From contig JAJDCU010000057.1 in NCBI GenBank assembly GCA_029260655.1, positions 1 to 55,734 on the forward strand: DNA of 55,734 nt, given 5' to 3'. Shown here piece after piece: positions 36,867 to 55,214 of this stretch; the stretch's first letter is position 1, and every line of letters starts with the position of its first letter. This DNA comes from Phycisphaeraceae bacterium (GTDB lineage Bacteria; Planctomycetota; Phycisphaerae; Phycisphaerales; Phycisphaeraceae). The translations under genes and the position numbers were made by a program. The notes beneath the pieces were generated by a model. The model was not told the origin of the DNA. It saw only the letters and a list, made by a program, of their open reading frames with translations, and searched no databases.

Positions 36867-39800
36867 CTAAGCCTTGCGGCGTCGGCGTCGCAGCGCCACG
36901 GGGCCGGCGCCGATCGCCAGGATCATCAACGCGGTCGGCTCAGGCACGACCGATCCCGGCGGCGGGGGGGCGCCTTCGTTCCAGTTTCCCAGCACCGCGT
37001 TGAGGTCCTCGATCCCGACAAACCCGTCGCCGGTCGGATCGCCCCGCAGCAGGTCGCCGGACAGCACGGACTGGTTCCAGTGGCCCAGCACGATGTTCAG
37101 GTCCTCGATCCCGACGAATCCGTCCCCGTTGAGGTCGCCGGCGAGCACGACCGCCGCCGAGATGTCGTCGATGAAGATCGTCCCGGTTGCGCCCATGGCC
37201 CCGCCGGTGATAAACGTGATGTCGAAGGACTGGATGTCCGTCAGCAGGGGGATCAATGCCTCATACATCTCGAACCCGGAGGAGGTGCCCGTGATGGTGA
37301 AGTTGTACTCGGTGATGTCGCCTATCAGATCCAGCCCCGAGACCGGCGAGGTGGAGACCCGAACCCGAGCCCTGAACTCATCACCGGGGGTGATGTCGTA
37401 TTGCCAGAACCACCGCAGCGCCAGGCTTCGCCCCGTATCGCCCTCGCCAGGGACCGCGGTGGCGTAGCTGCGCCACGCCTCGTCCTGGACGGCACTTAAG
37501 TCGGTCAGTTCCAGCGAGTGGGTCGGGCTCAACGCGACCTCATCGCTCCACGTAGCGTTCGATGAATCGTGCCAGCCGAACGGGCGTGACGGATCAAACG
37601 GGTGTGCCTGGTCCACGTCCGGGTTTTGCAGCAGGTTGCCCGCCTGCACCGCGGCGTTGTAGTCGATCACCACGCCGTTGACCACCAGTTGCCGGCCGAC
37701 CATTTGGGCACTCCCGCCCGCGGGCACCTCGACGAGGATGACCGCCTGATCCTGCGGGATCAAAAAGGAACTGATGCCGGTCACGTCACGGGCGATAAAA
37801 CGGTTCGACACCGCGTCGTACAAGTCGACGGGCGCGGCGCCCACGTCAACCTGCACCGACTTTTGTGTGTCGAACGGGTTGTAGTAGAGGAACGTCGGGT
37901 GCGCATCGTTGCGGAAGGAATCGGTCGCCAGCAGATCGAGTTGGAGGATCTCCGGCTGATTCGTCTCTCGGATGATCGACCCGAACACGCCGGCATACGC
38001 GCCGCCGTACAACGCGAAATCCGTCTCGGGACCCCAGCCAAACACCAACGGGTCACCCCCGGCGAAGAGTTCTTCGCCCTGGTTGTTCCAGTGGTGGCGA
38101 AGCCCCTCGTAGGCGATCACGTTGTCCGGGTCGCCCAGCCAGAACTCCGACGACTGGTTCTCCGCGGTGTGTTCATTGGCGTAGAACAGGCGGGCGGCGT
38201 TGGCGGCGTGGAGCATCCACTTGCCGATCGCGCGGGAATAACGGTCTTCATACCGCGCCACGGGGACCAGCGGCATGGCGGTGAGGAACGTGTTCATCGA
38301 GAAAGCGTATCCCTGGACATCGTTGCCGGTGTTCGGACGGATGAACCCCATCAGGCCGTCGACCTCCTGGCCGCCCCAGGTGCCCTCGACCATGATCTTG
38401 TCGGGCCGGGCATCGCTGCGATCAAAGACCCAGTTGACCATCTTGTGGATGTCGTAGTTCCGGCCGTGCTCGGCGTTCATGCGGGCGGCCGTGTAAGCCC
38501 CGAACGGGACCAGTATTTCGTAGTCGGGATTTGTCTGCAGGTCATCGTAATACTGAAGACTCCAATCGACAGCGTCGAGGTGGTCCTGCGCCCGCTGGGG
38601 GTCAACGGTCTTGTTCCGGTAGTACGCCGCGTGCTGGAGCCAGGCCATCCCCATCCCCATATCCGGCTCGCGCCAGACGCCATTAAAGACCGGTTGCTGG
38701 GTCTTGAAGTTAAAGGCGGTGTGGTTGAAGTTCGCGTTGGTCCCGCCGACGGTAAGGACGTTCACCGCGTTATAGAAGGCGTCATCGACCACATCCATCA
38801 CCGGGGCGAGTTCGGTCTGCCCGGGGTAGTGGTCCGCGATGCTGTAAAAAAGGATACTGGGGATCGTCTCATACCACGCCGTCCCCCCCGAGCCACCGAA
38901 CGGCCCGTTAAGGATTATGGGTTCATTCCTAAGGAGGCCAAAAAACTCACGGCTCATCGACACATAGTTGTGCGGCCCGGCACTCTTGTCGACCCCCACC
39001 AGCGACCCGCCGAGCACCGCGCCTAAGGTGGAGATCGATTCGAACACCTGTTCGCCGTTTTCGCCGAACGTCCGGACATCACCGACATAGGCCGCGATGC
39101 CGAAGGATTCTTGCAGTAACGGGAACTCCGGGGTCGAGTCGATCCGCGTCAAAGGCAGGTACTGGCCCGTGGCGTTAGTGTCGAACACGAGGCTGTCGAA
39201 CTTCTGGGCGGTATCCCGCCAGTCCCGCATCTGATAGGACGCGACGCGGTTGGGCATGACATCAACACGGTTAATGGGGTGTTGATTCGGCGCACCCGGC
39301 AACACCATCAGCAGCGGAGGCTCGGGAACGATCGCCGAGATGTCGTCCACAAACATGGTGCCCGTCTCGGCCCGGGCGCCGCCTGGATTTTCCGTCGATC
39401 GGAAGATGATGTCGAACGATGCGTCGGTCGCGCTCAGCGGGATGCTTGTCAGGAAGTTCTGGAAGCCGCCGCTGTTGGCACTGCCGTCGGTGAAGAAGAC
39501 GTGGTCCGTGATCGTACCGCCGAGGTCCAGCGATAACGCCGGGGCGTTGGAAATCCGGACGAAGGCGCTGAACTTACTACCACTGGTGATGTCCCAGTTC
39601 CAGTTCCAGTTCAGGTCCAGGGTACGGCCGGTCGCGCCCACACCGGGGATGTCCGTCGCGAAGCTGCGCAACTCTTCCAGGCCAGCCGTGTTGGTATCCG
39701 GGATATACAGCGAGTGGATCCCGCTGGTGACCGGGTCGGTCGTCCCGTTGCTCCACGCCGCGGATTGGCTGTGGTGCCAGTAGTCCGCGTAGCCGTTGGG

Positions 39801-39959
39801 GTGGTCCACGCCGGGGGTCCCGTGGGGGACAAACCGGCTTACGGTTTCTACGTCCACGTTCTCCAGCAGCTCTATGGCAACAGCCGACGCGCCCGTCCCG
39901 GCCAAGGAGACAACCGCCGCAGTAGTCATACCTAAAAAGAATTTCATCGAATTCTTCAT
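36867..39959 (-). CDS. Large PEP-CTERM/dockerin exported protein with enzyme-like core
   Basis: A 1,030-residue exported multidomain protein (numbering from the ATG 39959). A signal peptide (about 1-26) leads into beta-sandwich module A (about 27-210), close to the PEP-CTERM protein at 54447. At 211-215 a stray PEP motif (VPEPP) marks the join to the central domain (about 229-765), paralogous along its length to the 50602-52329 protein; helix-rich, with WYETIPSILFYSIADHYPG, NFNHTAFNF and RAIGKWMLHAANAARLFYANEH. A second beta-sandwich module follows (about 777-940), then two dockerin-like loops (36978-37139) and a C-terminal PEP-CTERM tail (VVPEPTALMILAIGAGPVAL then RRRRRKA). The core resembles an (alpha/alpha)6 glycosidase toroid, but no catalytic residues can be assigned. 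The reaction is unknown. Confidence 0.85.
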   Translation of the reverse strand: MKNSMKFFLGMTTAAVVSLAGTGASAVAIELLENVDVETVSRFVPHGTPGVDHPNGYADYWHHSQSAAWSNGTTDPVTSGIHSLYIPDTNTAGLEELRSFATDIPGVGATGRTLDLNWNWNWDITSGSKFSAFVRISNAPALSLDLGGTITDHVFFTDGSANSGGFQNFLTSIPLSATDASFDIIFRSTENPGGARAETGTMFVDDISAIVPEPPLLMVLPGAPNQHPINRVDVMPNRVASYQMRDWRDTAQKFDSLVFDTNATGQYLPLTRIDSTPEFPLLQESFGIAAYVGDVRTFGENGEQVFESISTLGAVLGGSLVGVDKSAGPHNYVSMSREFFGLLRNEPIILNGPFGGSGGTAWYETIPSILFYSIADHYPGQTELAPVMDVVDDAFYNAVNVLTVGGTNANFNHTAFNFKTQQPVFNGVWREPDMGMGMAWLQHAAYYRNKTVDPQRAQDHLDAVDWSLQYYDDLQTNPDYEILVPFGAYTAARMNAEHGRNYDIHKMVNWVFDRSDARPDKIMVEGTWGGQEVDGLMGFIRPNTGNDVQGYAFSMNTFLTAMPLVPVARYEDRYSRAIGKWMLHAANAARLFYANEHTAENQSSEFWLGDPDNVIAYEGLRHHWNNQGEELFAGGDPLVFGWGPETDFALYGGAYAGVFGSIIRETNQPEILQLDLLATDSFRNDAHPTFLYYNPFDTQKSVQVDVGAAPVDLYDAVSNRFIARDVTGISSFLIPQDQAVILVEVPAGGSAQMVGRQLVVNGVVIDYNAAVQAGNLLQNPDVDQAHPFDPSRPFGWHDSSNATWSDEVALSPTHSLELTDLSAVQDEAWRSYATAVPGEGDTGRSLALRWFWQYDITPGDEFRARVRVSTSPVSGLDLIGDITEYNFTITGTSSGFEMYEALIPLLTDIQSFDITFITGGAMGATGTIFIDDISAAVVLAGDLNGDGFVGIEDLNIVLGHWNQSVLSGDLLRGDPTGDGFVGIEDLNAVLGNWNEGAPPPPGSVVPEPTALMILAIGAGPVALRRRRRKA

Positions 39960-40132
39960 CACATTCGCCTCACAGATATCGAAGAAGAACATTCAATGAC
40001 GACAACGCGGAGGGCAACGGGGAACAGAACCGATCTCATGTTCTGTCCCTTCAACTGACACCTAGCGGGCGACGTCACTGCAACATCTTCGACTCGGGAC
40101 CAATGTTTCTCGTGTCATTGGTCTGCACCCAT

Positions 40133-50601: not shown

Positions 50602-52329
50602 TCAATCGTCCCGGTAATCGACCACGACACCGCCCACCAGTGTCCTGCTGCGGTCGCGTGTAACCTCCCCCGACACGGGGGTCAGAACTACGACTATCGC
50701 ACTGTCCGCGGGTATCGAAAGCCCGACACTGCCTGTCGCGCCTCGCTGGACGAAGCTGTTTGCCACACAGTCGTACACATCTTGAGGGTCGTCGCCCACA
50801 TCGATCTGCACCGTTTTTTCAACCGCATACGGATTGAAGTAAAGGTATGTCGGGTAGGCGGGTTCACGGTAGAAATCCGTCGCCAACAGATCGACCTGGA
50901 GTATCCGCTCGTCGCTCGTGGGCGCGATGATCGCACCGAACACCCCTACGAACGCGGACCCGTACAGGCCGAAGTCCGTTTCGATCGGCCCCCAGTCCTC
51001 GGTGAGCGGGTCGCCGCTGGCATAGAGTTGCTCGTGCGGTCGGCCGGCGTGCCAATTGTTTCGGATGCCCTCGTAGGCGATGACGTGATCGGGGTCGCCC
51101 TTCCAGCCGGGGGAGGATTGCCGGGCCGGGGGGTGTTCGTTGGCGTAGAACAGACGGGCGGCGTTGGCGGCGTTGAGCACCCACTTACCGATTGCGCGTG
51201 CGTAGCGGTCGTCGTAGCGCGCGACGGGTACGATCGGCCAAGCGGTGACAAATGTATTCATAGCGAACGCATACCCGCCGGCGCCTCGCTCATCCTGGCG
51301 CCGCGACCCCATCAGGCCGTGTACGTCGTGCCCCGCCCAACGCTCGGCGATCATGATCATGTCCTGCCGGGCGACGCTGCGGTCGAAGCACCAGTTGATC
51401 AGCTTGTCTACGTCGTAATCCCGATCGAGTTCGGCGTTCATCCTGGCGGCGGTGTAGGTACCGAATAGCAGTTGTATCTCGTAGTAAGGGTTGGTCGGCC
51501 AGTCGTCGAGGAACCGCATGCACCAGTCGGCGGCGTTGAGAAACCGCTGGGCGTCTTCTGTTTTGCCGGCGGCCTGCGCCCGGCGGTAGGCGACGTACTG
51601 GATCCACCCGATCGACCCGGCCGAGCCCGGCTCGCGCCACTTGCCGTTGTCCGTGGGCTGCATCGAGGTGAAGTTAAACGCGGTGTGGTTGAAGTCCGGG
51701 TTCTGACCGTTGTCGGTCAAGACCACGCTCGCCTCATACCACCGCTGCGCCGTGGCGTCGATGATCGCATCCATCCGCCCCACACCGGGGTATCGGTCGG
51801 CCAGGCTGTAGAACAGGATGTGCGGGAACGTCTCGTACCAGAAGCTGCTGCCGCTGCGGTCGACGGGCTTATTGAGGATCAGGTTCTCGCCGCTGGCGGT
51901 GCAATAAAACTCCTCACACATCTGGACCCAGTTGTGCTCGCCGCGGGTCTTGTCGATACCAATGAGCGTCGCGCCCAGGACCGAGCCCATCGTCGCGATG
52001 GACTCATAGACCCTGGCGCCCTGGATCTCGTTGAGGGTCCGGTAGTCGCCGACGTAAGAGCTGATGCCAAACCCCGTACGGTCGATGTTGACCCGGTTCT
52101 CGTCCAGCCAGATCACCGGCAGGTGCTCGCCCTGTGCGCTCAGGTCAAACGCCAACCGGTCGTAGCCCGCCGCAACCGAATTCCAGTCCCGCAGATGGAA
52201 CGGCTCTGGCAGGTTCGGCGCCAACTCGATGCGGTTGATCAGGTTCTGCTGCTCGGCGACCGCGGCGAGCGGCGGCAGCGTAACCGCGATCATGATCAGC
52301 AGGATGGTCCAGACATTCTTCGGACTCAT
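50602..52329 (-). CDS. Secreted enzyme-like protein, paralog of the large PEP-CTERM protein's core
   Basis: A 575-residue exported protein with a signal peptide (VWTILLIMIAVTLPPLAAVA). The mature protein is closely related over its length to the core of the 36867-39959 protein: shared blocks are NRIELAPNLPEPFHLRDW, WYETFPHILFYSLADRYPG, NPDFNHTAFNF, REPGSAGSIGWIQYVAYRRA, GTYTAARMNAELDRDYDVDKLINWCFDRS, YAFAMNTFVTAWPIVPVARYDDRYARAIGKWVLNAANAARLFYANEH, and a beta-rich end (TYLYFNPYAVEKTVQIDVG). Unlike its paralog it has no dockerin or PEP-CTERM tail. The pattern of repeated helix pairs and Trp/His/Tyr-rich strings suggests an (alpha/alpha)-toroid glycan enzyme (inference). ATG at 52329; a TTG start at 52353 would displace the signal. 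Confidence 0.82.
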   Translation of the reverse strand: MSPKNVWTILLIMIAVTLPPLAAVAEQQNLINRIELAPNLPEPFHLRDWNSVAAGYDRLAFDLSAQGEHLPVIWLDENRVNIDRTGFGISSYVGDYRTLNEIQGARVYESIATMGSVLGATLIGIDKTRGEHNWVQMCEEFYCTASGENLILNKPVDRSGSSFWYETFPHILFYSLADRYPGVGRMDAIIDATAQRWYEASVVLTDNGQNPDFNHTAFNFTSMQPTDNGKWREPGSAGSIGWIQYVAYRRAQAAGKTEDAQRFLNAADWCMRFLDDWPTNPYYEIQLLFGTYTAARMNAELDRDYDVDKLINWCFDRSVARQDMIMIAERWAGHDVHGLMGSRRQDERGAGGYAFAMNTFVTAWPIVPVARYDDRYARAIGKWVLNAANAARLFYANEHPPARQSSPGWKGDPDHVIAYEGIRNNWHAGRPHEQLYASGDPLTEDWGPIETDFGLYGSAFVGVFGAIIAPTSDERILQVDLLATDFYREPAYPTYLYFNPYAVEKTVQIDVGDDPQDVYDCVANSFVQRGATGSVGLSIPADSAIVVVLTPVSGEVTRDRSRTLVGGVVVDYRDD

Positions 52330-52373
52330 GCAGTGGGCCTTTATCAACAACACGCCGGGCGCTTGCGGGCAAC

Positions 52374-54446: not shown

Positions 54447-55214
54447 TCAGGCGCGACGACGACGACGCAGTGCCGCCAAGCCGCCGATACCCATCAGAGC
54501 CAGCGAGGCAGGCTCGGGGGTCGCGGAAACGTTATCCACGAAAAGCGAGCCTACCGCATCAAACTTGCCGGGGTCGCCGTCATTCGCAAGAGACCGGTCG
54601 CCCGTGTTGAAGATGATGTCGAACGACGCGTCGGTCGCGGTCAACGGGATGCTCGCCAGGAAGGTCTGCCACCCGCCGCTGTTGGCGTTGCCATCAGTGA
54701 AGAAGAAGTGGTCCGTGATCGTACCACCGAGGTCGAGCCCGCCGAAGGTCGGTGCGTCCGAAATCCGGACGGTAGCGGTGAACACGGGGCCGCTGGTCAT
54801 GTTCCAGTTCCAGTCCCAGCTCAGATCCAGGGGGAGCCGGTTGGGGTTGCCCACGCCGGGGAGGTCCGCCGCGAAGCTACGGCCTTCTTCCCAACCGAGC
54901 GTGGCATCGACGATGGGTGGGTTAAACACGCCACCGATGGCGCCATTGAAGTCACTGAGCCGCTGGGAGTGGAGCCCGCCCGCGACCGGGTCGCCGGCAT
55001 TGTTCCAACCGGTGTGGCCGCTATGGTGCCAACCGTCCGGGACGCCGGCGGGCGTATCCGCACCGGGGGTCCCGTGGGGGGCAAACCGGCTTTCGACTTC
55101 CATGTCACCGTTGACAACCAGGCCCAGGTCACCGGCCGACACGCTTGTCCCAGCCAAGGCGACAACAGCCGCTGCACTCATTCCAAAAAACATCTTCATC
55201 GAATCCCTCATCAC
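54447..55214 (-). CDS. PEP-CTERM beta-sandwich exported protein
   Basis: A 255-residue exported protein: signal peptide (about 1-28), a beta-sandwich body (SRFAPHGTPGADTPAGVPDGWHHSGHTGWNNAGD, LDLSWDWNWNMTSGPVFTATVRISDAP, DLGGTITDHFFFTDGNANSGGWQTFLASIPLTATDASFDIIF) and a PEP-CTERM tail (TPEPASLALMGIGGLAALRR then RRRA). The body is very close to the N-terminal module of the 36867-39959 protein; 126 aligned bases differ at 16 positions by my count. The Trp/Asn-rich jelly-roll-like strands and regular PEP-CTERM gene context suggest carbohydrate binding (inference). Possible start ATG at 55214, immediately before a second Met. Confidence 0.86.
   Translation of the reverse strand: MMRDSMKMFFGMSAAAVVALAGTSVSAGDLGLVVNGDMEVESRFAPHGTPGADTPAGVPDGWHHSGHTGWNNAGDPVAGGLHSQRLSDFNGAIGGVFNPPIVDATLGWEEGRSFAADLPGVGNPNRLPLDLSWDWNWNMTSGPVFTATVRISDAPTFGGLDLGGTITDHFFFTDGNANSGGWQTFLASIPLTATDASFDIIFNTGDRSLANDGDPGKFDAVGSLFVDNVSATPEPASLALMGIGGLAALRRRRRA

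Follow-up and report, generated by a model that had tools for sequence, protein, structure and literature searches.

A PEP-CTERM gene copy probably inserted into the signal-peptide codons of a glycosidase-like gene in an uncultured planctomycete

The large exported protein encoded at positions 36867-39959 appears to have arisen by in-frame insertion of a PEP-CTERM gene copy into a nearby gene for an enzyme-like protein, within the codons of its signal peptide. The window, i.e. the whole analyzed stretch of 55,734 nucleotides, is one entire contig (C57) of a 3.5-Mb genome in 83 contigs, and the fused gene with all its parts, the stand-alone PEP-CTERM gene and the stand-alone core gene lie on its minus strand. 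In the reading that we favor, with a probability of roughly 85% and for a single MAG, the start codon of the donor would now be used, the signal peptide of the donor would export the fused protein, the internal VPEPP would be a silent linker, and sorting would depend on the C-terminal tail. The architecture of the gene, the direction of the change and both junction regions are evident from sequence comparison, and the two observations that point to an in-frame fusion by insertion are the existence of unfused relatives and the fact that the donor piece is flanked on either side by sequence of the recipient. In the following, P denotes the stand-alone PEP-CTERM gene of the type found at 54447 (the donor type), and the recipient is the core gene that received the insert.

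Counted from the ATG at 39959, the fused gene encodes 1030 amino acids, and a second in-frame ATG upstream, at 39992, extends the mechanical ORF to 1041 amino acids. From the N- to the C-terminus the 1030-residue protein consists of a signal peptide, module A, VPEPP, a short junction, an enzyme-like core, module B, a dockerin-like repeat and a PEP-CTERM tail. The signal peptide is of the donor type (residues 1-26, 39882..39959; MKNSMKFFLGMTTAAVVSLAGTGASA compared with MRDSMKMFFGMSAAAVVALAGTSVSA, with the cleavage site judged by eye). It is followed by module A (residues 27-210, 39330..39881), a beta-rich domain that is 58.5% identical to the module of the window's own P; the strands of module A reach residue 210 in the predicted model, at low to medium confidence. 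P itself (54447-55214) encodes a tail that scores above both the Pfam and the NCBIfam cut-offs, and has orthologs in three congeners (78-84% identity). BLASTP aligned the whole fused protein with the product of P in a match that takes in the signal peptide (242 columns, 55% identity, E 2e-71), and at the DNA level the two genes are 69% identical over 611 columns. The original prediction that module A ends at FVDDISAIVPEPP (residues 203-215, at 39353-39315), where the tail of the 54447 paralog begins, was borne out, as the BLASTP alignment runs through the PEP and extends past it into the next residues, LLMVL; the VPEPP (residues 211-215, 39315..39329) is aligned with the PEP of 54447-55214.

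The core (residues 229-770, 37650..39275) is 50% identical to the product of 50602-52353, a stand-alone core paralog that has its own signal peptide, lacks the module and is represented by orthologs with 79-86% identity in four congeners. As had been proposed, the core begins where the mature paralog does, in the register APNQHPINRVD / EQQNLINRIE, a match that coincides with the expected start of the mature 50602-52353 protein. Behind the core lie module B (37146..37649), which belongs to the same module family as A, and a dockerin-like repeat (36960..37142), which was matched by NCBIfam dockerin_GC (E 1e-4, 22.6 bits, cut-off 29) and Pfam Dockerin_1 (13.9 bits), in both cases below the cut-off. 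The PEP-CTERM tail that had been claimed for the C-terminus (residues 1005-1028, 36876..36947) was recovered with TIGR02595 at 16.1 bits against a cut-off of 16, although its Pfam score of 16.7 bits falls below the cut-off of 20.7.

A search with the stand-alone core through 400 genomes of the order, a set that includes the genome of the window, found the core in eight of them. Four of these are other members of the window's genus (G070, G121, G127 and G157); in G106, the one remaining congener, no core gene was found. Each of the four carries two core copies, the stand-alone ortholog and a copy that shares 81-86% identity with the large protein of the window. In this second copy the signal peptide leads straight into the core, which is followed by module B, and module A is absent. 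The mature starts of the second copies read AQNQLP (G070, G157), AQRQLP (G127) and AQRQMP (G121), and a C-terminal PEP motif is reached in three of them. The comparison of orthologs that had been recommended in search of separate genes therefore found the core gene without module A in four of the five other genomes of the genus, and P as a separate gene in three of the four core-bearing congeners; a P ortholog was not found in G157, whose contig stops short of that position. A scan of named genomes yielded 80 loci encoding the core (36 of which were taken into alignment A2 and 51 into alignment A3), and in BLAST none of the 80 had module A in front of the core. Nine of these loci, four from this genus and five from other planctomycete MAGs (L068, L079, L081, L082, L093), have module B after the core, and module A was likewise absent before the core in all nine. 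Since the gene is unfused in four congeners and no N-terminal module A occurs in the 80 loci, the fused form is, by these alignments, derived and the unfused form ancestral, and the converse finding that had been named beforehand as fatal to the proposal, an ancestral fused gene, failed to appear. The PEP-CTERM tail at the C-terminus predates the event, as do module B and the dockerin-like repeat, all three having been part of the recipient.

Over the stretches covered by the congeners' contigs a common gene order was found, consisting of P, two pilin-like genes, the stand-alone core, a GH130 gene, two ABC genes, an FG-GAP gene and the large protein, with oxidoreductase and methyltransferase genes between the latter two in the window and in G127 that are absent in G121. 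The G121 ortholog of the large protein (L052, G121:C294, 2003-4420; L021) contains a premature TAA within module B, which points either to gene decay or to an error in the assembly. In G070 and G157 a gene with a related module and a dockerin-like/PEP-CTERM tail lies directly downstream of the core gene (L054, 12111-13034; L055, 3848-4819), and its counterpart in the window's genome is found on a different contig (L004, L034; G000:C76).

At the left joint, approximately 65 bp within the interval between the methyltransferase gene and the ATG of the fused gene resemble the ribosome-binding site, the ATG and the first 14 signal-peptide codons of the G157 and G070 copies. This remnant of the recipient's start (39997..40062, with the ATG at 40039; MRSVLFPVALRVVV) scored 40 in local alignment with G157 (40062-39998; best of 2000 shuffles, 36) and 35 with G070 (40051-39997; best of 2000 shuffles, 29), and it gave no local match to G127 and G121, which have different signal peptides. 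It was also the top match in the whole 55-kb window when overlapping 200-bp tiles of both strands were compared, the next non-overlapping tiles scoring 26 and 25. The likeness to the recipient breaks off at 39998/39997, and likeness to the donor leader of G070 begins at 39996. This donor leader (39960..39996), which includes a ribosome-binding site, aligned with the P leader of G070 with a score that was reached by 5 of 2000 shuffles; the P leaders of G127, G121 and the window aligned in the same register, with scores that are weak when taken alone (reached by 55, 108 and 509 of 2000 shuffles, respectively).

From 39996 the likeness to the donor continues through the signal peptide, module A and the PEP down to approximately 39305, and likeness to the recipient is found again from approximately 39301, at a point within the same signal peptide that is already broken upstream. 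At this right joint the recipient side scored 47 against G070 (best of 500 shuffles, 23), the donor side scored 23 compared with 26 for the best shuffle and is thus non-significant alone, and the right-flank DNA of G157 and G121 scored 17 and 13, below the best shuffles, these two being compared at the protein level. Because donor likeness ends near 39305, recipient likeness resumes at 39301 and in G070 the recipient ends lie three bases apart, a segment of about 695 bp (39302..39996) would have entered the signal-peptide codons with almost nothing lost, both joints being read from diverged sequences and perhaps displaced by several bases. Inspection of the joints by eye revealed neither a target-site duplication nor clear microhomology.

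The sequence that spans the internal PEP junction, VPEPPLLMVLPGAPNQHPINR, retains pieces of both parents. According to the original prediction the helix of the tail was replaced by PLLMVLPGAPNQHP; a simple replacement did not hold up, as the first part of this peptide is probably the start of the helix itself and its last part, APNQHP, is the mature N-terminus of the recipient. Within the LLMVLPG junction (39294..39314), the DNA alignments from both sides suggest that LLM probably stems from the start of the old PEP-CTERM helix (compare PEPP-L-LM with PEPASLALM) and that VLPG straddles the join. APNQHP (39276..39293) aligns with AQNQLP, AQRQLP and AQRQMP of the congeners, and the N at its third place is also found in the AQNQLP of G070 and G157, the congeners that match the upstream remnant. 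Both flanks of the insert hence resemble G070 and G157.

These joints are consistent with an event in which a copy of a 54447-type gene, beginning at the ribosome-binding site and ending shortly after the start of the sorting helix, entered a nearby gene within its signal-peptide codons, this recipient having encoded a signal peptide, the core, module B, the dockerin-like repeat and a PEP-CTERM tail. The idea that a PEP-CTERM gene was joined in frame to the gene of a secreted enzyme-like protein is upheld by the unfused congeners as far as the fusion is concerned, but the end-to-end join that it implied gives way to an insertion. Fusion by deletion, in which a PEP-CTERM gene lay directly upstream, the intervening DNA was lost and the two frames were joined end to end, would be a simple and common route, from which the same direction of change and the same domain order would be expected. 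We rejected this candidate because the start region of the recipient sits upstream of the donor piece, which is the wrong side for such a deletion, and in addition G127 and G121, whose contigs cover that side, have no P-type gene immediately before the core; such an origin thus seems quite improbable. That the insert is a misjoin from assembly or binning is a concern with a single MAG of 83 contigs as the sole source, but it is very unlikely, since the insert differs by about 30% in its DNA from the window's own P gene, the same recipient gene is found on both flanks and a frame of 1030 codons is kept.

Gains of domains are usually inferred from architecture alone. At this locus the donor leader, the donor sorting motif, the recipient start and the recipient mature end all remain readable, and it is for this reason that a route by insertion can be argued. 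As in gene fusions and domain gains of other multidomain proteins, a domain of another gene was joined in frame to an existing protein; the difference is that the piece here would have entered signal-peptide codons together with a ribosome-binding site and a signal peptide of its own, and that the old start was left upstream as a short overlapping ORF. The gene would accordingly illustrate, with remnants of both parent genes left at the joints in one uncultured planctomycete, how an N-terminal module can be added to a secreted modular enzyme while export is retained, and how a sorting motif can degenerate into a linker.

After the proposed insertion translation would begin at the donor ATG, and the donor signal peptide would presumably export the fused protein. 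The old ATG of the recipient at 40039 now heads an ORF of 26 codons (39959..40039), whose TGA shares one base with the ATG of the fused gene (TGATG). It is conceivable, if rather doubtful, that the old start, with its ribosome-binding site and ATG, is still functional, and that translation of the 26-codon ORF couples or tunes the expression of the fused protein. If this were true, a broken signal peptide would have been turned into a leader peptide in one step, with the donor supplying a new export signal and its sorting motif becoming a linker.

The internal copy of the sorting signal retains the PEP motif and lies 819 residues from the end of the protein. A hydrophobic helix and a basic cluster are both absent after it: the best 14-residue hydrophobicity is 0.6 compared with 1.91-2.24 in the window's four C-terminal tails, and the best six residues contain one basic residue compared with three to six in these tails. 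The full-length model (mean pLDDT 73.2) places the VPEPP in a loop between a strand and the core (residues 209-222, pLDDT under 50), without a helix there, and forms a helix at residues 1010-1029. No PEP was found at the equivalent place in the congeneric orthologs. The C-terminal tail of the fused protein combines a PEP with a helix of hydrophobicity 2.24 and a basic cluster of six residues. Lacking a hydrophobic helix and a basic cluster and lying in a low-confidence loop, the internal PEP is therefore probably silent, as judged from the sequence and the model, and the recipient's old C-terminal tail would still be the sorting signal, with exosortase processing taking place solely at the C-terminus.

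The structure prediction had been named as a possible objection, and the VPEPP indeed lies in a loop, as would be expected if it were an ordinary proline-rich linker resembling a PEP motif by chance. Chance occurrences of PEP are found at other places as well, one of them in the mature N-terminus of 50602-52353 (residue 49). However, the VPEPP stands at the column of the paralog's PEP, in an alignment that is unbroken from the module through to LLM, and these contiguous DNA and protein alignments continue to back its ancestry in a tail, so that a chance likeness has very little in its favor. Hardly any weight is left for the view that the internal PEP is still recognized by an exosortase and that module A is consequently cleaved or differently anchored. 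The PEP and a short hydrophobic LLMVL remain and the genome contains two exosortase genes (over the PF09721 cut-off), but the low hydrophobicity and the single basic residue speak against recognition, as do passages of Haft et al. (2006; PMC1569441) that place the PEP-CTERM signal near the C-terminus virtually without exception. Compared with the PEP-CTERM/exosortase system as these passages present it, the fused protein is alike in its C-terminal PEP, helix and basic cluster, together with the exosortase genes of its genome, and differs in carrying an additional, truncated internal copy far from the C-terminus. A literature keyword search combining PEP-CTERM, planctomycetes and dockerin gave no match, and one combining PEP-CTERM, exosortase and gene fusion matched type IX secretion only.

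Module A is about equally distant from all four P genes (58.5-62.8% identity). In the comparison that also covered four-fold sites, its amino acid identity to the P genes was 60-65%, lower than the 78-84% between the window's P and its orthologs. At four-fold sites the differences between module A and the P genes (0.32-0.45) overlap with those between the window's P and its orthologs (0.25-0.34). In a module tree of 15 rows, which contained no P ortholog from G157 and left out the third-type modules of the window's genome, G121 and G127, A branched outside the four P orthologs (support 92/96), and a pairing of A with the window's own P stayed unrejected in the AU test (p-AU 0.093). With A nearly equidistant from the four P genes, overlapping four-fold-site ranges and this AU result, attempts to name the donor copy and to date the event were unsuccessful. 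Because the protein identity of A is lower while the four-fold-site differences overlap, the data suggest a relaxed or changed constraint on module A after the fusion; an older donor copy that has since been lost is equally possible. The position of A outside the P orthologs would also allow the A copy to be old and the fused gene to be ancestral, with module A lost in the congeners, but the exact loss of the insert and restoration of the signal peptide would then be needed in four congeners and at further planctomycete loci, and the remnant of a broken signal peptide occurs in the window alone, which makes this the least credible of the alternatives.

With regard to function, the model of the 560-residue paralog 50602-52353 (pLDDT 93.8) consists of an (alpha/alpha) toroid followed by a C-terminal beta domain. 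VIA-align ranked GH76 first (6u4z, Z 21.6, rmsd 3.7 A, 327 aligned residues, 10% identity), with other toroid glycosidase families close behind, and Foldseek alone returned weak matches, the best to GH146 (E 3.4e-5, TM 0.33). Pfam GH76 did not match the two window proteins (E up to 1) or 52 family members (E up to 0.1), no Pfam glycosidase family was matched by the core, and no credible relative emerged when solved structures were searched by sequence. The core thus shares its fold with the (alpha/alpha) toroid glycosidases, such as GH76 mannanases (6u4z), GH88 unsaturated glucuronyl hydrolases and GH127/GH146, and differs from them in the lack of a Pfam glycosidase match and in its 10% identity to 6u4z. 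Because of this glycosidase-like fold and of the adjacent GH130 and solute-binding-protein ABC genes, the core is likely to be a secreted or surface glycan-acting enzyme; mannan as its substrate would be a guess by analogy. Module A would be an extra N-terminal domain beside the glycosidase-like core, a second beta-rich and perhaps glycan-binding domain in addition to the related module B, and in the proposed mechanism it may bind a polysaccharide or a surface next to the core.

When the large protein was compared with its own genome (G000), 116 matches were obtained, 111 of them at query residues of at least 821, mostly to the dockerin-like repeat and the PEP-CTERM tail, and only eight reach E 0.001 with Pfam Dockerin_1. 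A search of this 95%-complete genome for cohesins (PF00963, E up to 0.001) gave no match, although diverged cohesins could escape the profile at this threshold; a large set of dockerin-like tails is thus present without a recognizable cohesin.

The core family (L061-L140), with its toroid glycosidase-like fold and no Pfam family, is broad, with 348 relatives among 480 candidate stretches, and its hosts include planctomycetes, Verrucomicrobia, Paenibacillus, Bacteroidota, Ignavibacteria and several archaeal MAGs. In copies from Paenibacillus and related Firmicutes (L075, L077, L084, L095, L109) almost nothing precedes the core in the open frame, and these proteins may for this reason be cytoplasmic. 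Of the 80 loci, 14 have approximately 180-270 residues, counted from stop to stop, ahead of the core (L067, L072, L076, L078, L080, L083, L085-L091, L099). Pfam found nothing in three proteins with such N-terminal domains. Five of the 14 domains match one another and other loci of the group in phmmer and gave no BLAST link to module A (E up to 1), and since they match one another and not module A, the N-terminal domain of these loci seems to have been acquired in a second, separate gain at this boundary.
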